Below, one piece after another: positions 1 through 8,828 of a DNA stretch of 64,000 nucleotides. Position 1 is the first letter of the stretch; every line of letters begins with the position of its first letter. The stretch is from contig CAILCG010000014.1 in the NCBI GenBank assembly GCA_903832665.1, positions 124,001 to 188,000 of the forward strand, in the 5' to 3' direction. The position numbers and the translations under genes were made by a program. Under the pieces are notes generated by a model. It did no database searches. It was not told the DNA's origin and saw only the letters and a program-made list of their open reading frames with translations. The stretch is from an uncultured Methanomicrobiales archaeon. GTDB lineage: Archaea; Halobacteriota; Methanomicrobia; Methanomicrobiales; Methanospirillaceae.

Positions 1-372
1 ACGCGCTACCTGCTCAATGATGTTGCGATCGCAAAGAAGATCCCGCTCTTCCATGGCGGCATCCGGGGATTCTATGGCCAGGCAACCACGATCCTTCCCG
101 GGACAACCCCGTGCCTCAAATGCATCTTCCCCAAGGCCCCGCCAAAGGAAGTATTCCCGGTTGTGGGCGTGACCCCGGGTATCATTGGGACGATCCAGGC
201 CAACGAAGTGATCAAGTACCTGCTGGGCAGCGGAGACCTTCTCGCGGGCCGCCTCTTCATCTGGGATGGGAGGGAGGCGCATGCAGAGGAGATCTGCGTA
301 GAGCGTAACCCCGCGTGCGAAGCGTGTGGTAGCTTGCGAACAACAAAAAAACCTGCGAGGGAAGAGAAATGA
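1..372 (+). CDS. ThiF/MoeB/HesA-family E1-like adenylyltransferase, C-terminal part
   Basis: The gene is cut by the window edge; 123 codons remain. Members of this family adenylate the C-terminal Gly-Gly of MoaD or ThiS so that sulfur can be loaded on it. The visible part shows the family's paired zinc-binding cysteines (PCLKC near residue 44 of the fragment and ACEAC near the end) and the motif GVTPGIIGTIQANEVIKYL, which is typical of the C-terminal half of MoeB/ThiF proteins. The stop codon overlaps the start of the MoaD gene (ATGA), so the two are translationally coupled. The choice between MoeB, ThiF and HesA cannot be made from this fragment, but the MoaD and MoaE genes downstream favour a molybdopterin role. 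Confidence 0.88.
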   Translation, partial: TRYLLNDVAIAKKIPLFHGGIRGFYGQATTILPGTTPCLKCIFPKAPPKEVFPVVGVTPGIIGTIQANEVIKYLLGSGDLLAGRLFIWDGREAHAEEICVERNPACEACGSLRTTKKPAREEK

Positions 373-647
373 CCGTTAAGATCCGGTTTTTTGCACGGTT
401 CCGGGAACTGCTCGGAACAGATATCCTGACCGATGTTACGGCCGGGACTACGCTTCGATCATTGATCACCACAATCTCCCAAAGAAATCCTGAGGGACAT
501 GCTGCCATCTTTGATGAGAACGGCACGTTTCACGAGTTTGTCATCTTAATGAAGAACGGCAAACGGATCGAACTCGGGGATGCGGCCGACACGTCGGTTG
601 CAGATGGCGATGAGATCGCGGTCTTCCCGCCGGTTGCCGGGGGATAA
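369..647 (+). CDS. moaD: MoaD/ThiS-family sulfur carrier protein
   Basis: A 92-residue beta-grasp protein that ends in VAGG. In this family the terminal glycine carries the thiocarboxylate used by molybdopterin synthase. The N-terminus (VKIRFFARFRELLG) is the usual MoaD beginning, and the length fits. The start ATG overlaps the stop of the E1-like gene and moaE follows after 12 bases, so the protein probably forms the small subunit of the MoaD/MoaE synthase encoded here. A general sulfur-carrier role, such as ThiS or a SAMP-like modifier, remains possible because archaeal beta-grasp proteins are often shared between pathways. Confidence 0.88.
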   Translation: MTVKIRFFARFRELLGTDILTDVTAGTTLRSLITTISQRNPEGHAAIFDENGTFHEFVILMKNGKRIELGDAADTSVADGDEIAVFPPVAGG

Positions 648-659
648 TCCGGTAGCATC

Positions 660-1082
660 ATGATCGCAATCCAGACGGGCGATGTCGACATCGGGGCTCT
701 CATAACTGCGGCAAAGAAGCCCGGTACCGGAGCTATCGTAGTCTTTGACGGGGTAGTCCGGGATGACGGGATCACCGAAATGGAACTCGAAGCCTACGAG
801 GAAGTGGCGGTAAAAGAGTTAGAGAAGATCGCTAAGGAAGCGACCCGGCAGTTCCGGCTCCTGCATGTCGATATCATTCACCGTGTCGGCAACCTGGGGG
901 TTGGCGAAAATATCCTGATCATTGTGGTGAGTGCCGGACACCGGCCCGAAGCCTATGCCGGTTCCCGCTATATCATCGAAGAGATCAAGAAAGGGGTCCC
1001 GATCTGGAAGAAAGAACTCACCCGGGATGGCGGGCGGTGGGTGCCGGGTGAACACGGGCACGGGGGCGGGAAGCCCACATAA
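660..1082 (+). CDS. moaE: molybdopterin synthase catalytic subunit MoaE
   Basis: A 140-residue protein that matches MoaE along its length. MoaE binds precursor Z (cyclic pyranopterin monophosphate) and accepts sulfur from the MoaD tail. Visible family features are the early GAIVVFDGVVRDD segment, the central HRVG.L.VGE segment, SAGHRPEAY and the active-site lysine region GVPIWKKE. The gene follows moaD by 12 bases and closes the E1-moaD-moaE operon. In methanogens the product pterin serves molybdenum or tungsten formylmethanofuran dehydrogenase and formate dehydrogenase; that connection is general knowledge and not visible in this window. Confidence 0.95.
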   Translation: MIAIQTGDVDIGALITAAKKPGTGAIVVFDGVVRDDGITEMELEAYEEVAVKELEKIAKEATRQFRLLHVDIIHRVGNLGVGENILIIVVSAGHRPEAYAGSRYIIEEIKKGVPIWKKELTRDGGRWVPGEHGHGGGKPT

Positions 1083-1838: not shown

Positions 1839-2060
1839 GGATCAAATATCCATTAGAGATATCAATGCGCCCGTGTGTTATCGGTGTTTTGGGCCGGTGA
1901 ACTTCGGGAAACCCTGTAGGTTTTCATTTTTTTTAGGTACCAGGTAAATATCCGGCAATATTTCATTTAAACCCGAGATGGGAATATTCAGGTTCGATCA
2001 TTTTCCCGTTCCGCGCCCGATATTTATCAGGACGCCCGTTGAACCGGAGTGTGGTACATC

Positions 2061-2366
2061 ATGCAGCAGAACCCGATGGATGTGTTCCTAAAAGAAGCCC
2101 CCGAAGTAGCAGCGGCCTTCAACGGCCTGATCATGTCGCTTGTCGCATCAAAAGGACTGGATGTAAAGACCAAGCAGCTCATCTACATTGCGATGAAGGC
2201 CTCGATGGGCGATGAGATGGCAGTCCGGGCACATGTCCCGATGGCAAAAGCCGCCGGGGCAACAAAAGAGGAGGTCGTGGATGCGATCCTCATGACGCTT
2301 ACGGTCTCGGGCATCCGAGGTGTTGTCACCTGCCTGCCGGGAGCGGTGAAACATTTCGAAGAATAA
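2061..2366 (+). CDS. carboxymuconolactone decarboxylase/AhpD-like protein without CxxC
   Basis: A 101-residue all-helical protein of the AhpD/CMD family. I place the start at ATG 2061 because GGAG lies at 2046-2049, about 11 bases upstream; a GTG at 2049 would add four residues. Redox-active members carry CxxC followed by a histidine. Here the corresponding stretch reads ASMGDEMAVRAHV, so the histidine is kept but both cysteines are absent. This excludes an AhpD-type disulfide peroxidase role and leaves the function open. The pattern GATKEEVVDAILMTL is typical of the second helical half of the fold. The gene stands alone between a pilin gene and the divergent regulator region. Confidence 0.8.
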   Translation: MQQNPMDVFLKEAPEVAAAFNGLIMSLVASKGLDVKTKQLIYIAMKASMGDEMAVRAHVPMAKAAGATKEEVVDAILMTLTVSGIRGVVTCLPGAVKHFEE

Positions 2367-2477: not shown

Positions 2478-2963
2478 TTAGATTCTCCGTGCAATGACCT
2501 CCAGCGCATCGAGCACCGTCCCGGACTTCGGTTTCATGATGGCCACTGGTACATCCACGATCTTTTCTATCATCGATGCCAGGATGGGTGCACAGATGAT
2601 CCCGGCTGCCCCGTCTTTTTCCGACATTACCGCAGCAATAATGCACTCTTCGATCGAGTTTGCCGTATATCCCCGCAGGGAATACGTCTGGTGTTTTATG
2701 CAGATCTCCTGCCCCTCGATTTCATCGAGAAGAAATTTTGCGGCAATGACCGATATGAAGACGGGCAGTTTTGGTTCAAGCACCTGGACGATCTTTTTAA
2801 CCGTGGAGAGGCGGACATCTCCTTCACCGGATGTGATCTTGTAGAGCGTTGCGGCAGGGATCCCGGCCTTGTCGGCAAGCTCCCTGATGGTCATGTTCCT
2901 GCGGGAGAGTTCCTCTTCCAGTGCTGTCCGGAAATCCACTTCAAATACCTTTTTTGAAAACAT
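2478..2963 (-). CDS. XRE-type HTH transcriptional regulator, divergent to the coenzyme M cluster
   Basis: A 161-residue protein. Residues 10-65 form a Cro/CI-type helix-turn-helix (RELADKAGIPAATLYKITSGEG). The C-terminal part (about residues 75-161) is a small alpha/beta domain ending IMKPKSGTVLDALEVIARRI, which resembles a ligand-sensing domain, perhaps like the N-terminal domain of PrpR; this second assignment is weak. The gene is divergent to the coenzyme M operon with 103 bases between the starts, and a perfect 10-base palindrome lies six bases upstream of its ATG. It is therefore the best candidate for an autoregulated local regulator of coenzyme M synthesis. The effector is unknown. Confidence 0.8.
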   Translation of the reverse strand: MFSKKVFEVDFRTALEEELSRRNMTIRELADKAGIPAATLYKITSGEGDVRLSTVKKIVQVLEPKLPVFISVIAAKFLLDEIEGQEICIKHQTYSLRGYTANSIEECIIAAVMSEKDGAAGIICAPILASMIEKIVDVPVAIMKPKSGTVLDALEVIARRI

Positions 2964-3066: not shown

Positions 3067-3849
3067 ATGAGCTCCGGAACCATCAGCGATATTACCATAC
3101 TGCCCGGCCATGATAAGCATGGGAACCCGGAATCTTTTGACCGCATCGTGATCCGGCCCGGAGATACCCTGTCCATCGTCGGTCCGACCGGTTCGGGAAA
3201 GACTGCGTTCATCAATGATATCGAAGTTTTTGCCTGCAATGATACTGCGACCGGGAGAACGGTGCTGGTGAACGGAGAGATCCCGGCCGAAGAGTTCATC
3301 CGTGACCCTTCGAAAAAACCCATCGCCCTCATCACCCAGAACACCAAGTGCCTGGCCGATATGTCCGTTGAGGCGTTCCTTTCCATGCATGTCCGGGCAC
3401 GGAAGATGAGCGGTTCAGCGATCGTTGCAGAGACCATCGAGCTGGCCAACCAGTTTACCGGAGAGCAGATCCAGCCGGGCTGCCGCATCACGGCGCTGTC
3501 CGGTGGCCAGACGCGTTCACTCATGGTGGCTGACGCAGTCCTGATCAGCAATGCACCGCTCATCCTGCTCGACGAAGTGGAAAATGCGGGGATTTTCCGG
3601 GAAAAAGTGATCGAGGTCTTAAAAGATCACTGCAAATCGGTGATCTTCGTCACCCACGATCCACTGGTCTCGCTCTTATCCGATCGCCGGCTGGTCATGC
3701 GACACGGCGGGGTGGAGAAAATTCTCGAGCCGGAGGGCCGGGAGACGCATATCCGGGAGATGGTGGCCCGCATGGATCTCACGCTCTGCCGCTTCCGGGA
3801 ACGGATCCGCGCCGGGGAACTTCTCTCTGAACCGGGGTTTACAATATGA
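3067..3849 (+). CDS. soluble ABC-type ATPase of the coenzyme M cluster
   Basis: A 260-residue ABC ATPase with Walker A GPTGSGKT (about residues 38-45), Q-loop ITQN, signature LSGGQ (about 140), Walker B LILLDEVE and switch histidine VTHD. No membrane protein is encoded next to it, so it is unlikely to be a plain transporter subunit. It starts the operon and its last codons overlap the next gene (ATGA). Its neighbours are a HypB-like GTPase, a 4Fe-4S protein and ComF, which suggests nucleotide-driven maturation, electron delivery or sulfur delivery for coenzyme M synthesis; this is inference. No ribosome binding site is visible, and a TATA-like CTATTTTTAA at about 3031 suggests a short leader. 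Confidence 0.85.
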   Translation: MSSGTISDITILPGHDKHGNPESFDRIVIRPGDTLSIVGPTGSGKTAFINDIEVFACNDTATGRTVLVNGEIPAEEFIRDPSKKPIALITQNTKCLADMSVEAFLSMHVRARKMSGSAIVAETIELANQFTGEQIQPGCRITALSGGQTRSLMVADAVLISNAPLILLDEVENAGIFREKVIEVLKDHCKSVIFVTHDPLVSLLSDRRLVMRHGGVEKILEPEGRETHIREMVARMDLTLCRFRERIRAGELLSEPGFTI

Positions 3850-4553
3850 AACTCATCATCATCGCCGGACCCCCGAGCGCTGGAAAGACTGCGGTAACCC
3901 GCCAGATCATCCGGCATTTCCTTGGCAAGAAGAAGTGTGCTTTTCTCAAGATCGATGTGGTCAGGGCATTTGAAGATGAGGAACTCCGGGAAGAGTTCCA
4001 GATTCCCGCCCGCAAGATCTATTCCGGTGATCTCTGCCCTGACCATACGGGAGTCATGGTCCTCAAAGATGCCATCGCGTGGGCAGAACGTCTCGGGACA
4101 GATATTTTTATCGTGGAAAGTGCGGGCTTATGTCTCCGCTGCTCCCCCTACGTCACCCAGTCTCTCGGGATCGTGGTCATCTCGGCAGTCAGCGGCATGA
4201 ATTCCCCGCTGAAGATGGGTCCCATGATCTCCCTTGCCGATGTTGCCGTGATCACCAAAACGGATCTTGTCTCCCAGTCGGAAAAAGAAGTATTCCGCGA
4301 GAAGACTAAAGAGGTCGCGCCGGCTATCGATATCATTGAGACCAATGCAGTGCAGGGAACCGGGCTCCGCTTCCTGATGAGAGCGATTGATCAGCAGGCA
4401 GAAATTTCTGATCCCGCTACGATTGTGCTCCGGGGCATACCCCCGCTCGGGGTCTGCACCATCTGCGTAGGGAAGAGGGAGATCGGCTGGCAGAACCATT
4501 TCGGGGTGGTCCGGAAACTGGACGGGGCCGATGACATATTCCGGGGTGACTAG
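3846..4553 (+). CDS. HypB/CobW-like SIMIBI GTPase of the coenzyme M cluster
   Basis: A 235-residue P-loop NTPase of the HypB/UreG/CobW class. Visible are Walker A GPPSAGKTA (residues 8-16), a Walker-B-like IVESAG followed by CLRC, and the base-specificity motif TKTD in place of NKxD. A second cysteine pair, CTIC, lies near residue 212. Family members insert metals or load cofactors into enzymes, with cysteines holding the metal. The start overlaps the ATPase stop and the Fe-S protein gene follows after two bases. With the ATPase and the Fe-S protein it probably forms a small maturation system for an enzyme of this operon, ComF being the obvious candidate. No experiment known to me supports this. 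Confidence 0.82.
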   Translation: MKLIIIAGPPSAGKTAVTRQIIRHFLGKKKCAFLKIDVVRAFEDEELREEFQIPARKIYSGDLCPDHTGVMVLKDAIAWAERLGTDIFIVESAGLCLRCSPYVTQSLGIVVISAVSGMNSPLKMGPMISLADVAVITKTDLVSQSEKEVFREKTKEVAPAIDIIETNAVQGTGLRFLMRAIDQQAEISDPATIVLRGIPPLGVCTICVGKREIGWQNHFGVVRKLDGADDIFRGD

Positions 4554-4555
4554 GG

Positions 4556-5176
4556 GTGAACACATGGCAACCGCCCGGGAAGGATTGCGGCGCATGTGGT
4601 GCGAAATGCTGTAATGATTTTCTCGCAATGATGGGCCAGGGAACTAAGTCCCCGCAGGACTGCCCGTATTATGGTCCCTCCGCGCAAACGGTTGTCGCTG
4701 ATATATTGGCCCGCACCGGAACCGATGTGTGCGGGAGGGAGTACGATTTCATCATCGGTCCGCTTCCCGGCGAGCCGTCTGCCCGGAAGATCATCCTCCC
4801 GTTCCGAGCCGATCTGGTAGAACGCTGGGAGATTGTCCGGGGGGATATCGTGATCGGCCGGCCTATGGGGCAGGGCTGCCCGGTGCAGCACGTGCTCCGG
4901 GTGCTGGAGGCAAACCCGGTGACGGGGGTGCTTACCTGCCACACGGTCGGACCCCACGAGGCACGGCAGTGCGGGGGAAAGGATGTCCAGGCGTATCATG
5001 TCATTGGCTTTGAAGGCATGGCAGAAGTGGTGAAACGCCCCCCGGAGTTCGGGTTCCGGCAGTTCTTCCTCCCCTCGTTCTGCATGATGCAGGTCGCCCA
5101 TACCGGCGTAGTGAACATGGTGCTGGAAAAAACCACGGGCATCCAGGTGAGGGTTGAGGATATCCGGATCCTCTAG
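4556..5176 (+). CDS. 4Fe-4S (PF04060-type) protein of the coenzyme M cluster
   Basis: A 206-residue protein starting with GTG two bases after the preceding stop. Residues 10-42 hold CGACGAKCC...CPYYG, the four-cysteine arrangement of the FeS domain also found in corrinoid Fe-S proteins and RnfB. The remainder is a separate domain with cysteines at several points (VCGREY, GCPVQHV, TCHTVG, QCGGKD) and no family I can name with confidence. Its place between a HypB-like GTPase and ComF suggests an electron or cluster donor for ComF. Absence of a membrane segment points to the cytoplasm. Alternative reading: a general methanogen Fe-S protein that happens to be co-transcribed. Confidence 0.78.
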   Translation: MNTWQPPGKDCGACGAKCCNDFLAMMGQGTKSPQDCPYYGPSAQTVVADILARTGTDVCGREYDFIIGPLPGEPSARKIILPFRADLVERWEIVRGDIVIGRPMGQGCPVQHVLRVLEANPVTGVLTCHTVGPHEARQCGGKDVQAYHVIGFEGMAEVVKRPPEFGFRQFFLPSFCMMQVAHTGVVNMVLEKTTGIQVRVEDIRIL

Positions 5177-5186
5177 GAGTGGAGTG

Positions 5187-6434
5187 ATGAAGACGATCGA
5201 CGGGATAAACAAGAAGATCGCAGAGGGCAGCGCTGTTGTCTGTACTGCCGAAGAACTCAAACAGCGCATTGCAGACGGTGAGACCATCACGGCTGCCGAT
5301 GTGGACGTGGTCACTACCGGCACGTTTGGCGTAATGTCGGGAACCTTGGCGGTCCTGCACCTCCCGGTCACTGCCCCCGGCACCTTCCGCCAGGCTGAAA
5401 AAGTCTGGCTCAATGGCGTGCCGGCCATACCGGGACCCTGCCCGAACGAGGGACTCGGGTCTGTTGATCTCGTGGTATACGGTACCGCCCATGCGAGTGC
5501 TGCCTATGGCGGGGGACACCTCTTCCGGGACATCGTGGCAGGAAAGGAGATCACGGTCGATGTCGAGTCATCGCACCTGTGGTTCTCCCGCTCCGTGACC
5601 CTTGCCGAGATGGGCCATGCCCGCCTCATCACCACCCGGAGTGCTTTTAGGAATTACCTTGCGGTCATCAACACGAAACCGGATACCGTACAGTCCATCT
5701 TTTCAGTACAGGGACTGACCGGCCCGTATACGGAGGCATCGGTGAGCGGGTGCGGGGATATCAACCCGATCCAGAACGATCCGGACCTGCGGGTGATCGG
5801 TGTCGGGACACGGCTCCTCCTCAACGGGGGGACCGGCTATGTCATGGGCCAGGGCACCCGGAGCAGCCGGGAAAAACCCAACATTGCCGCGTACGGGGAT
5901 ATGCATGCCATGAACCCGGAGATGATGGGCGGTTTTGTCACTTCGCTCGGACCCGAGTGCAACTCCTCGGTCGCCATCCCCATTCCCGTGCTTGACGATA
6001 CTGTTCTCACCAGCCTCCGCATCACCAACAACCGCATCCCGCTCCCGGTTGCCGATGTGCGGGACCGGATCCCCTTTGCCACGGCCAGCTACGCGGATGT
6101 CTGGGACGGTACGGATTCCGCCATCTCGTACTCACCAGATGCCTGCATCCATTGCGAAACCTGCCCGGCTGCGCAGGTCTGTCCGACCGGTGCGATCACG
6201 CTCCCGACGGGAATTGACCCGCAGCTCTGCGTGAACTGCGGTACCTGCGTCCGGGAATGCCCCGGGGGCGCATTCTCCGGAAATCTCGGGGTGCTGACCG
6301 CTGGCGCGACAAAAGTTCCCATCACGCTCCGCCAGTCGGACCGTGCCCGGGCACTGCGGTTGTGCACGCACCTCAAAGACCTGATCCTTGACCGGAAGTT
6401 CAGCCTTACCGGGAAAGTGGAGGATCTCGTATGA
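5187..6434 (+). CDS. comF: ComF-like sulfurtransferase (COG1900, methanogenesis marker 16) with ferredoxin domain
   Basis: A 415-residue protein of the DUF39/COG1900 family, known as methanogenesis marker 16. The M. jannaschii homologue was reported to convert sulfoacetaldehyde to coenzyme M. Residues 1-310 form the DUF39 domain (GTFGVMSGTLAVLH, GTRSSREKPNIAAYGDMH). Residues 318-372 carry two 4Fe-4S motifs, CIHCETC...CPTG and CVNCGTCVREC. I chose ATG 5187 over upstream starts because AGGAGTGGAG precedes it. The next gene overlaps its stop (ATGA). Cysteate synthase and ComDE follow, so this enzyme would perform the last step of the same pathway and would need reductant and a sulfur donor. Confidence 0.88.
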   Translation: MKTIDGINKKIAEGSAVVCTAEELKQRIADGETITAADVDVVTTGTFGVMSGTLAVLHLPVTAPGTFRQAEKVWLNGVPAIPGPCPNEGLGSVDLVVYGTAHASAAYGGGHLFRDIVAGKEITVDVESSHLWFSRSVTLAEMGHARLITTRSAFRNYLAVINTKPDTVQSIFSVQGLTGPYTEASVSGCGDINPIQNDPDLRVIGVGTRLLLNGGTGYVMGQGTRSSREKPNIAAYGDMHAMNPEMMGGFVTSLGPECNSSVAIPIPVLDDTVLTSLRITNNRIPLPVADVRDRIPFATASYADVWDGTDSAISYSPDACIHCETCPAAQVCPTGAITLPTGIDPQLCVNCGTCVRECPGGAFSGNLGVLTAGATKVPITLRQSDRARALRLCTHLKDLILDRKFSLTGKVEDLV

Positions 6435-7699
6435 GCTCCTACACGCTCCGCTGTGTTCACTGTGGCGATGAGGTGCCGGAGCATTACACCACGGCCTGCC
6501 CCCGGGGCCATGCCTCTCTCCTGCGGGCAGACTACGCTGAAAAGCAGTTGAATGTAATGAAGGCTCCGGGCATCTTCCGCTTCAGCAGCTGGCTCCCGGT
6601 TCATGGTTCGCTGCCGATCGATGCAGGTCCCGTCTGTTACAAAAGTGAAGCGCTGGCACGCGAGCTGAACCTCCCTAACCTCCATATCGGTTTCAATGGC
6701 TACTGGCCGGAACGGGGCGGGACGATCGCGACCTGCTCGTTCAAGGAGCTTGAAGCCCTCCCCACGATGGTCAGGGTAAGGGAGAACACGACAGACACGC
6801 TCGTCATTGCCTCGGCCGGCAATACTGCCCGGGCCTTCCTCCAGGTCTCGGCCCTGACCGGTGTCCCGGTCGTTGTCGTGGTACCGGAAAAATCTCTCGC
6901 CCGCCTCTGGACAACGGTTCCCGCGGAGAAGGCCTGCGTGATTGCAGTCCGGGGGGACTACACCGATGCGATCCGTTTCAGCCGCGAGGTCTGTTCCCTT
7001 CCCGGATTCATCGAGGAAGGAGGAGCCCGCAATGTTGCGCGGCGGGACGGTATGGGAACGGTCATGCTGGACGCAGCCGTGACCATCGGACGCATGCCCG
7101 ACTACTACTTCCAGGCAATCGGCAGCGGTACCGGGGGGATTGCCGCGTGGGAAGCAGCAGTCCGCCTCCGGGAGGACGGCCGCTTCGGGCAGGCACTCCC
7201 GTCCCTCCACCTCAGCCAGAACCTTCCCTTTGTCCCTATGGTCTCGGCGTGGAACGACCATCGGAGAACCCTGGTGGCAGAGACGGATATGCCGGACGCC
7301 TCTTCTGCCATATCCCGGGTCTTTTCGGATGTACTGACCAACCGCGAACCCCCCTACGCAATTCCCGGCGGGGTGTTCGATGCGATGTCGGCAACCGGTG
7401 GCCGGATGTACGCGGTCACCAATGACGAAGCCCGTGCCGCCGGGAACCTGTTTACGGAACACGAAGGCATCGACCTCGACCCCGCTGCCGCGGTAGCGGT
7501 ATCGTCGCTCATCCGGGCGTGCGAGACCGGCAGCATCGATACGGGCCGGACCGTGCTCCTGAATATAACGGGCGGGGGATATGAGAGGGTGCGGGAAGAT
7601 CACGCGCTCATCCCGGTACATCCGGCGTTCTGCGTCCCGGCCGGTGCAACTGCTGAACAGGTAAAAAAAGAACTGGCGAAGCTGGTGAACCATGTATGA
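6431..7699 (+). CDS. cysteate synthase
   Basis: A 422-residue PLP enzyme of the threonine synthase superfamily. Cysteate synthase replaces the phosphate of O-phosphoserine with sulfite to make L-cysteate, the first step of coenzyme M synthesis in Methanosarcinales and Methanomicrobiales. An N-terminal zinc-ribbon-like segment (CVHCGDEVPEHYTTAC, residues 8-23) and the PLP lysine in SFKELE (about residue 103) are visible, with the glycine-rich SGTGG loop near residue 235. The identity rests mainly on context: ComF is upstream, ComDE overlaps its 3' end by eight bases. A true threonine synthase is possible but unlikely in this position. Confidence 0.88.
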   Translation: MSSYTLRCVHCGDEVPEHYTTACPRGHASLLRADYAEKQLNVMKAPGIFRFSSWLPVHGSLPIDAGPVCYKSEALARELNLPNLHIGFNGYWPERGGTIATCSFKELEALPTMVRVRENTTDTLVIASAGNTARAFLQVSALTGVPVVVVVPEKSLARLWTTVPAEKACVIAVRGDYTDAIRFSREVCSLPGFIEEGGARNVARRDGMGTVMLDAAVTIGRMPDYYFQAIGSGTGGIAAWEAAVRLREDGRFGQALPSLHLSQNLPFVPMVSAWNDHRRTLVAETDMPDASSAISRVFSDVLTNREPPYAIPGGVFDAMSATGGRMYAVTNDEARAAGNLFTEHEGIDLDPAAAVAVSSLIRACETGSIDTGRTVLLNITGGGYERVREDHALIPVHPAFCVPAGATAEQVKKELAKLVNHV

Positions 7700-8828
7700 G
7701 AACCTCGTAATCGATATCCTGAAAGAGCACGGTATCAGCTACATCGCCTCGATACCCTGCGACAAGGCAAAAGACCTCTGTTTCATGCTTCCCGATAACT
7801 TCGATCACACCTGCCTTACCCGGGAAGAGGATGGGATCGGCGTCTGTGCCGGTCTTGTCCTTGCCGGACAACGGCCCGCGATGGTCATCCAGAGTTCGGG
7901 ACTGGGCAACTCCCTCAACGCGATCATGTCCCTGACACGGACGTACGATCTTCCGCTTCCCATCATCGCGAGCTGGCGCGGGGTACAGGACGAGATTATC
8001 CCGGCACAGGTGCCGTTCAATGCCGCGATCCCGAAGATCCTCGAAGCGACCGGTATTCCCTTTACCGTCATCCATACCCATGACGAGTTTGGGAAGATTG
8101 GCGATGTGATTGACGATGCGTTCCTGCACCTGCGGCCCCATGTAGCCCTGGTGCTCCCCGGGGCATGGGAAGGGGCATGGGAAGGGGCGGGATCCTGCCG
8201 GGCGGAGTGCCCGCCCCCGTCCCGTGTCCGGCAGGTCACTGTCGCCTACGAGCGGACCATCAGGGAACCCGTGATGACCCGGTTCGATGCGATCCGCGTC
8301 ATTGCCCGGCACCTGGCGGAACAGGCCGTTGTCTCGAATATCGGGGTGCCCGGCAAGGAGCTCTATGCCGCACATGACCGGCCCCTGAACTTCTACATGC
8401 TCGGCAGTTACACGCAGGCCTCGCCACTGGGGCTCGGGCTGGCTGAAGGTTCTCATCGCGATGTCTGGGTGATCGATGGCGACGGGAGTGTCCTGGGGAC
8501 CGGTATCCTGCCGGTCATCGGGACCCGGCAGCCGGCGAATCTCACGATCTTCTGTCTTGACAATGGTGCGTTTGGCAGCACCGGTAACCAGTTGACACCG
8601 GCCTACCGGGACACCGATATCGAGCTGCTTGCCATTGCCGCGGGTTTCCCTCACACGGCAAAAGCCCAGACGGAAACAGAACTGTCTGCCGTTATCGGGA
8701 AGATGGGGCGTGGCCCGAACTTTGTTCACGTGCTCCTGAAACCCGGTAATTCCGCGGTAAAGAACATCCCCCTTACCCCGCATGAGATCCGGGACCGGTT
8801 CTCGGCGGCGATGAAAAAATCCCATTAA
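7692..8828 (+). CDS. comDE: sulfopyruvate decarboxylase, fused ComD-ComE
   Basis: A 378-residue thiamine diphosphate enzyme that decarboxylates sulfopyruvate to sulfoacetaldehyde. Residues 1-155 correspond to the ComD subunit and about 190-378 to ComE, with the ThDP/Mg motif GDGSVLGTG...NLTIFCLDNGAFGSTGNQ. In some methanogens these are separate genes; here they are one chain, as in Methanosarcina. The linker holds a short duplicated sequence (GAWEGAWEGAG) from a repeated GGGCATGGGAAG unit at about 8160-8188. The gene starts eight bases before the end of cysteate synthase. Its stop faces the convergent aminotransferase gene across 30 AT-rich bases. Confidence 0.93.
   Translation: MYENLVIDILKEHGISYIASIPCDKAKDLCFMLPDNFDHTCLTREEDGIGVCAGLVLAGQRPAMVIQSSGLGNSLNAIMSLTRTYDLPLPIIASWRGVQDEIIPAQVPFNAAIPKILEATGIPFTVIHTHDEFGKIGDVIDDAFLHLRPHVALVLPGAWEGAWEGAGSCRAECPPPSRVRQVTVAYERTIREPVMTRFDAIRVIARHLAEQAVVSNIGVPGKELYAAHDRPLNFYMLGSYTQASPLGLGLAEGSHRDVWVIDGDGSVLGTGILPVIGTRQPANLTIFCLDNGAFGSTGNQLTPAYRDTDIELLAIAAGFPHTAKAQTETELSAVIGKMGRGPNFVHVLLKPGNSAVKNIPLTPHEIRDRFSAAMKKSH

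Follow-up and report, generated by a model that had tools for sequence, protein, structure and literature searches.

Biological methane formation depends on coenzyme M, and the source of the sulfite used in the synthesis of this coenzyme is a published open question (PMC6286981, PMC3448663). According to Chadwick et al. 2025 (PLoS Genet, PMC12068725, Fig 2B), genes for an ATPase, a 'Ni2+ binding GTPase' and a 'COG2000 domain Fe-S protein', the role of which is given as unknown, frequently colocalise with coenzyme M genes; the name COG2000 for the Fe-S protein is adopted from that paper. The cluster presented there places these three gene types beside the genes for ComF, cysteate synthase (CS) and ComDE, as does the operon analysed here; the core of the present observation, the colocalisation, was therefore published before. 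The main text of the same paper contains no report of bacterial occurrence, of a cysteine desulfurase, of links with CysK, MetY or ComA, or of the three genes in the absence of ComF. In a literature search that combined COG2000, Fe-S protein and GTPase, COG2000 was named, among the papers listed, in this one only. The new part is a widespread, sulfur-linked ATPase-GTPase-COG2000 operon, no description of which was found in the literature searched.

The three proteins (the trio) resemble components of several described systems. The nickel-insertion GTPases HypB and UreG share the SIMIBI fold with the trio GTPase, in which putative counterparts of their Cys-His-Cys ligands are present. The trio GTPase differs from them in its score against the best-matching NCBIfam model, HypB (TIGR00073; 63.4 bits, under the equivalog cut-off of 121.2), in its extra CxxC motifs, and in its ABC ATPase and COG2000 partners. 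HypB works with hydrogenase maturation partners (HypA), and on untargeted inspection no HypA or hydrogenase genes were noticed among the recurrent neighbours of the trio. The ISC and SUF systems (IscS/NifS, SufC) and the trio loci have in common a soluble ABC ATPase, an Fe-S protein and, in part of the trio loci, a cysteine desulfurase and an Rrf2 regulator, whereas the SIMIBI GTPase and the COG2000 β-domain distinguish the trio; additionally, no IscU/SufB scaffold was noticed during untargeted inspection, and the desulfurase is missing from half of the bacterial and nearly all of the archaeal trio loci. In the CysO/CysM and ThiF/MoaD systems, sulfur is handed to a cysteine synthase, as is proposed below for the trio, and a thiF-moaD-cysK group lies beside one archaeal trio (L108), but the trio itself has neither a ubiquitin-like carrier nor an E1 enzyme.

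The CFeSP large subunit and RACo/AtwA share with the trio an N-terminal PF04060 4Fe-4S domain and the use of ATP; the trio contains no corrinoid domain and no ASKHA fold. RACo and RamA are recognised by an ASKHA ATPase domain, whereas the ATPase found here is a PF00005 ABC protein, and AtwA (component A2) is built of tandem ABC domains, whereas only one ABC domain is present here. The analogy with the ATP-driven activation of corrinoid enzymes and methyl-CoM reductase, which was drawn in a preliminary description of this DNA, comes down to the PF04060 domain.

Organization of the Six-Gene Operon

The operon is located in a stretch of 64,000 nucleotides from an uncultured Methanomicrobiales archaeon (the window), in which the following genes were identified:

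2478..2963, minus strand: divergent HTH regulator (PF01381)
3067..3849, plus strand: ABC ATPase, 260 aa (PF00005, 44.7 bits)
3846..4553, plus strand: HypB/CobW-type SIMIBI GTPase, 235 aa (PF02492, 48.4 bits)
4556..5176, plus strand: COG2000 Fe-S protein, 206 aa (PF04060, 28 bits; gathering cut-off 23)
5187..6434, plus strand: ComF (MMP16, coenzyme M synthase; TIGR03287, 507 bits; cut-off 364)
6431..7699, plus strand: cysteate synthase (CS), the sulfite-consuming step (TIGR03844, 651 bits; cut-off 325)
7692..8828, plus strand: fused sulfopyruvate decarboxylase ComDE (TIGR03845, 200.9 bits, and TIGR03846, 216.5 bits)

The ATPase and GTPase genes overlap by 4 bp and are followed after a gap of 2 bp by the Fe-S protein gene, and all six genes of the operon are joined by 4- to 8-bp overlaps or separated by gaps of at most 10 bp. 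The same gene order, ATPase-GTPase-Fe-S-ComF-CS-ComDE, recurs in all 15 of the other ComF-bearing loci of the same taxonomic order that were fetched first. The coordinates and gene descriptions of the preliminary description, according to which the trio is overlapped or tightly spaced with comF, cysteate synthase and comDE, are correct, and its prediction of two 4Fe-4S clusters in ComF matches the two ferredoxin motifs of the ComF sequence.

Several other genes accompany the operon. Homologues of the HTH regulator, which has an extra C-terminal domain, are present in 32 of 78 archaeal trio loci and in 9 of 56 loci without the trio; the gene is conserved next to coenzyme M operons, whether these include the trio or not, and is a candidate regulator of coenzyme M synthesis. 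A CMD-family protein is encoded upstream of the trio (2049-2366, plus strand), and a homologue lies upstream of a Bacteroidales trio (L238:5591-5896). Further upstream (163-1082, plus strand), an apparent MoeB/ThiF-like C-terminal end is followed by SAMP1/MoaD and MoaE genes. A scan for sigma-70 promoters was uninformative, the host being an archaeon.

The ATPase, GTPase and COG2000 Fe-S Proteins

The ATPase consists of a single ABC domain in 260 aa and has no membrane partner. Its motifs in the alignment are GPTGSGK, LSGGQTR and THDP, together with an unusual Walker B, 'DEVENAGI'. In the GTPase, the alignments show the invariant motifs CPDH (64-67), E91-x-AGLCxRC99 and CxxC (204/207). When HypB structures are aligned, C64 and H67 coincide with the C and H of HypB, and C99 is one residue off the third ligand, which suggests that the GTPase has counterparts of the HypB metal ligands and a putative metal-binding capacity.

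The Fe-S protein is composed of an N-terminal CFeSP-type 4Fe-4S motif, which matches the corrinoid/Fe-S protein 4djd (E=3e-7), and a C-terminal all-β domain. The invariants of the β-domain are R102, P103, C108, P109, H112, P173, C176, H182 and E201, and Arg102, Cys108, His112, Cys176, His182 and Glu201 are invariant across 91 sequences. The AlphaFold2 model of the β-domain has a pLDDT of 96 and a pTM of 0.89. Foldseek returned no match under E=0.1 for either Fe-S protein model, and the best VIA-align matches (Z 5.4 and 4.1, approximately 60 residues) are generic barrel-like pieces, which were rejected as proof of kinship or of a new fold. Judged from these models, the β-domain has no convincing solved relative recognised by Foldseek or VIA-align.

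Distribution in Halobacteriota

The distribution of the genes was examined in 247 Halobacteriota genomes, with Methanobacteriota lying outside the sample. Every one of the 61 genomes with the trio-type GTPase also has the full-length Fe-S protein, which is found in no other genome of the sample, and strict searches with the ATPase and with the GTPase agree on a set of 66 genomes, among them some with paralogous (type-B) pairs that lack an Fe-S gene; the three genes thus travel as one unit. The recurrent gene order and the identical distribution of GTPase and Fe-S protein indicate that the arrangement of the trio is not due to chance. In Methanomicrobiales-type genomes the order of the window is found, part of the Methanosarcinaceae have the order CS-ATPase-GTPase-Fe-S-ComDE with ComF convergent, and in a third family (f22) the order is CS-ATPase-GTPase-Fe-S, with ComF elsewhere.

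Within the taxonomic order of the window (45 genomes), the trio and CS are both present in 30 genomes and both absent from 14, with 1 genome having the trio only and none CS only (p=9e-11). The corresponding numbers for the trio and ComF are 29 with both, 13 with neither, 2 with the trio only and 1 with ComF only (p=2e-8), the relatedness of the genomes making both p-values overstate the significance. The genomes of this order without CS span eight genera, which indicates that the trio is lost or kept together with the whole coenzyme M pathway. The co-occurrence of the trio with ComF that the preliminary description called for is found within the order but does not extend to the phylum, in which 54 of 110 ComF genomes have no trio; CS is present in 40 of these 54. 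Two single-contig genomes, G056 and G492 (L152, Methanoregula sp. SKADARSKE-2), contain the trio, CS and ComDE but no ComF anywhere, and their sole COG1900 protein is of the homocysteine type (approximately 150-165 bits). In a further genome (G228), ComF lies beside the HTH gene, and both CS and the trio are absent.

The first interpretation of the trio was that of a dedicated system for the maturation or activation of ComF. In agreement with it, 56 of 77 archaeal trio loci adjoin ComF, and the trio and ComF are lost together within the order of the window. ComF sequences form two supported clades, and clade I is almost entirely trio-adjacent. Additionally, three Methanosarcina genomes (L095, L161 and L162) contain an extra ATPase-GTPase-Fe-S-ComF cassette besides the native ComF; the ComF of the cassette is only about 45% identical to a native Methanosarcina ComF, and the cassette was probably acquired horizontally. 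A functional tie of the trio to one ComF subtype therefore exists. However, the 54 ComF genomes without the trio, the trio-CS-ComDE genomes without ComF and the wide bacterial occurrence without COG1900 described below, which the preliminary description had itself named as counter-evidence, contradict a dedicated role. One group of genomes (g65), identified as Methanosarcina by ComF identities of 81-92% to a named Methanosarcina, has no trio in 6 of its 7 sampled members, M. acetivorans itself not being among the genomes inspected. In M. acetivorans, a species of this genus, MMP16 is the primary coenzyme M synthase and works in vivo according to PMC12068725, where the M. jannaschii ComF (MJ1681) is also cited as making coenzyme M in E. 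coli. The trio is thus neither necessary for ComF nor confined to it, and a dedicated ComF system is considered quite improbable. Of the proposal that the trio is the missing part of coenzyme M synthesis, the tie to the pathway in several methanogen lineages stands, whereas the dedication to ComF does not.

Other genes were also noticed at these loci. An HdrCB-like protein with CCG and Fer4 domains is encoded next to or near ComF at L082:6321-7925 and about ten similar loci; it is common in trio-less ComF loci (family f10) and is a candidate alternative electron donor. SsuA/NMT1-like solute-binding proteins, two of them (L096 and L104) without an obvious signal peptide, lie beside three archaeal trios (L096, L104 and L108). 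Two MAG contigs labelled Nitrospirae and Bacilli (L160 and L164) carry archaeal coenzyme M operon genes and are probably mis-binned.

Bacterial Operons and Their Sulfur-Related Neighbours

When a collection of 84,980 species genomes was scanned with the GTPase, at least 578 related sites came up, and the best 80 were examined as loci. These 80 include loci from Heliobacteria, Peptococcaceae, Acidobacteria, Bacteroidales, Omnitrophota, Chloroflexi, Planctomycetes, Gallionellaceae and others; their bacterial GTPases are 53-64% identical to that of the window, and the GTPase is flanked by the ATPase in 79 of the 80 loci and by the Fe-S protein in 77. No COG1900 (ComF-type) protein of any kind is present in 35 of 45 bacterial trio genomes. 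The trio unit is therefore widespread in bacteria without ComF. The locus counts given here describe a best-scoring sample obtained by simple ORF calling and BLAST thresholds, in which related genomes are not independent.

A NifS/IscS-type cysteine desulfurase is encoded in 27 of 53 bacterial loci, usually between the GTPase and Fe-S genes, and is missing from the operon of the window and from nearly all archaeal trio loci. The other neighbours in the 53 bacterial loci include MetY (6 loci), CysK (4), ComA (3), MoeB/ThiF (3), CysE (1) and ComB (1), whereas MetY, CysK and CysE are found in none of 56 loci without the trio. In L172 the order is ComA-ComB-trio, and in L235 the trio operon is followed by CysE-CysK. 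The methanogen G203, which also carries a canonical coenzyme M operon, has a second trio (L108) beside cysE (fused to a SufT-type domain), cysK, moaD and thiF. Most bacterial loci have no conserved flanking gene beyond regulators, which are of the Crp/Fnr (16) and Rrf2 (14) types in the 53 loci and lie upstream of the operon in many of them. These regulators would suit a module that senses sulfur or redox state or keeps it in balance, as in sulfide detoxification or the repair of Fe-S damage, and that is placed in sulfur operons for co-regulation. This explanation is very improbable, as the trio lies inside biosynthetic operons and, in eight genera of the order, is missing along with the coenzyme M pathway.

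A more serious alternative is a general module for metallocluster assembly, insertion or repair, analogous to HypB or SUF, the clients of which would include sulfur operons and the two 4Fe-4S clusters of ComF. The kinship of the GTPase with HypB/UreG and its putative counterparts of the Cys-His-Cys ligands, the combination of an Fe-S protein and a cysteine desulfurase in one unit, the Rrf2 (IscR/CymR-like) regulators, the CysE-SufT fusion next to the L108 trio and the type-B pair beside heavy-metal-chelation DUF364 proteins and importers are all consistent with such a module. However, the recurrent partners of the trio do not fit it. CysK, MetY and CS depend on PLP, CysE is an acetyltransferase, and none of these four is known to contain a metal cluster; nor are ComA and ComB known to contain an Fe-S cluster. 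Cofactor insertion therefore cannot explain the linkages with CysK, CysE, MetY and CS, and on untargeted inspection no scaffold of the IscU, NifU or SufB type was noticed as a recurrent neighbour. A general metallocluster module is thus regarded as unlikely, if worth keeping in mind.

A Possible Sulfur-Supply Module

The feature common to CysK, CysE, MetY, CS and ComA is the use of inorganic sulfur or the preparation of an acceptor for it. The recurrent neighbours other than the desulfurase are mostly consumers of inorganic sulfur, namely CysK and MetY, the sulfite users CS and ComA, and ComF. Together with the desulfurase in half of the bacterial operons, these neighbours make sulfur supply the simplest reading. 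The trio is tentatively interpreted, from its genomic context, as an NTP-driven sulfur-supply module that may have been recruited to coenzyme M synthesis, an interpretation that is plausible but falls short of probable. With the same reserve, the trio may be seen as a soluble machine of mainly anaerobic prokaryotes and not as a ComF-specific chaperone.

In such a module, sulfur would enter as sulfide or as the persulfide of the desulfurase, and the Fe-S protein would hold or transform it by means of the CFeSP-type cluster and the invariant Cys, His and Arg residues of the β-domain. The HypB-like GTPase, the cysteines of which may bind metal or sulfur, and the ABC ATPase might act as gates for the transfer or power a redox step, and the product would be passed to the local sulfur-incorporating enzyme. 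The recipients in the operon of the window could be CS, ComF or both, and the species delivered could be sulfide, persulfide or sulfite. The invariant motifs of the Fe-S protein and the GTPase are consistent with this scheme but do not prove it. Several observations count against sulfur supply: roughly one in two bacterial loci lacks a desulfurase, none of the known carrier folds was recognised, the CysE-SufT/FeS_assembly fusion of L108 leaves room for a metal-cluster role, and Rrf2 regulators control Fe-S assembly too. Additionally, the 40 genomes with ComF and CS but no trio indicate that something else can take the place of the module or that it is not strictly required.

A narrower proposal is that the trio makes the sulfite for CS and ComA, perhaps by using NTP to oxidise sulfide or persulfide sulfur, and would be the source, missing so far, of the sulfite in coenzyme M and other sulfonates. 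Since the origin of this sulfite is an acknowledged puzzle, the proposal is attractive for coenzyme M and for ComA. The distribution of the trio follows that of CS no less closely than that of ComF, 12 archaeal loci have the trio adjoining CS with no ComF nearby, the trio adjoins ComA/ComB in Peptococcaceae-type bacteria, and ComA is found in 19 of the 45 trio genomes reached through the loci. However, ComA is absent from the other 26, the neighbours CysK and MetY use sulfide and not sulfite, and trio-ComF cassettes occur without CS nearby (L161 and L162). No CapA-type cysteate synthase above the family cut-off was found in the trio genomes. The co-occurrence of ComA with the trio in Bacteroidales (7/12 versus 51/186, p=0.04, uncorrected for relatedness) is too weak and was dropped as support. 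The sulfite proposal is accordingly rated as improbable.

The sulfur-supply interpretation shifts the question from a ComF chaperone to a shared sulfur-delivery machine, draws attention to an Fe-S protein domain without a recognised solved relative, and points to the bacterial versions, such as those of Heliobacterium and Bacteroidales, as places where the function is testable. In its most far-reaching form, which is similarly improbable, the unit would be an uncharacterised NTP-driven sulfur-conversion machine that provides sulfur in an oxidised or activated form, possibly as sulfite, for C-S and sulfonate bonds in anaerobes, with the COG2000 β-domain as a new catalytic fold. If true, such a conversion would fill a long-standing gap, the sulfite source of methanogens for coenzyme M.

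Evolution of the GTPase and the Type-B Pairs

In a GTPase tree obtained by a quick search with SH-aLRT support only, the Methanomicrobiales and bacterial versions are separated from a deeply diverged version in the coenzyme M loci of Methanosarcinales, which groups with the type-B pairs at 100%. Two distinct versions thus appear to lie beside CS/ComDE, through either separate recruitment or old divergence, which strengthens the link with coenzyme M synthesis.

The type-B pair (L116-L128, L216 and L244-L248) consists of a GTPase and an ABC ATPase without COG2000, several with an N-terminal extension. A search of a plasmid collection yielded a single type-B match, without annotation. The pairs occur in archaea, Bacteroidales and Fusobacterium and have two sets of partners: SBP_bac_6 proteins, some fused to DUF1858 and without a clear signal peptide in the sequences inspected, and DUF364/DUF4213 heavy-metal-chelation proteins with BtuF/FecCD-like importers.
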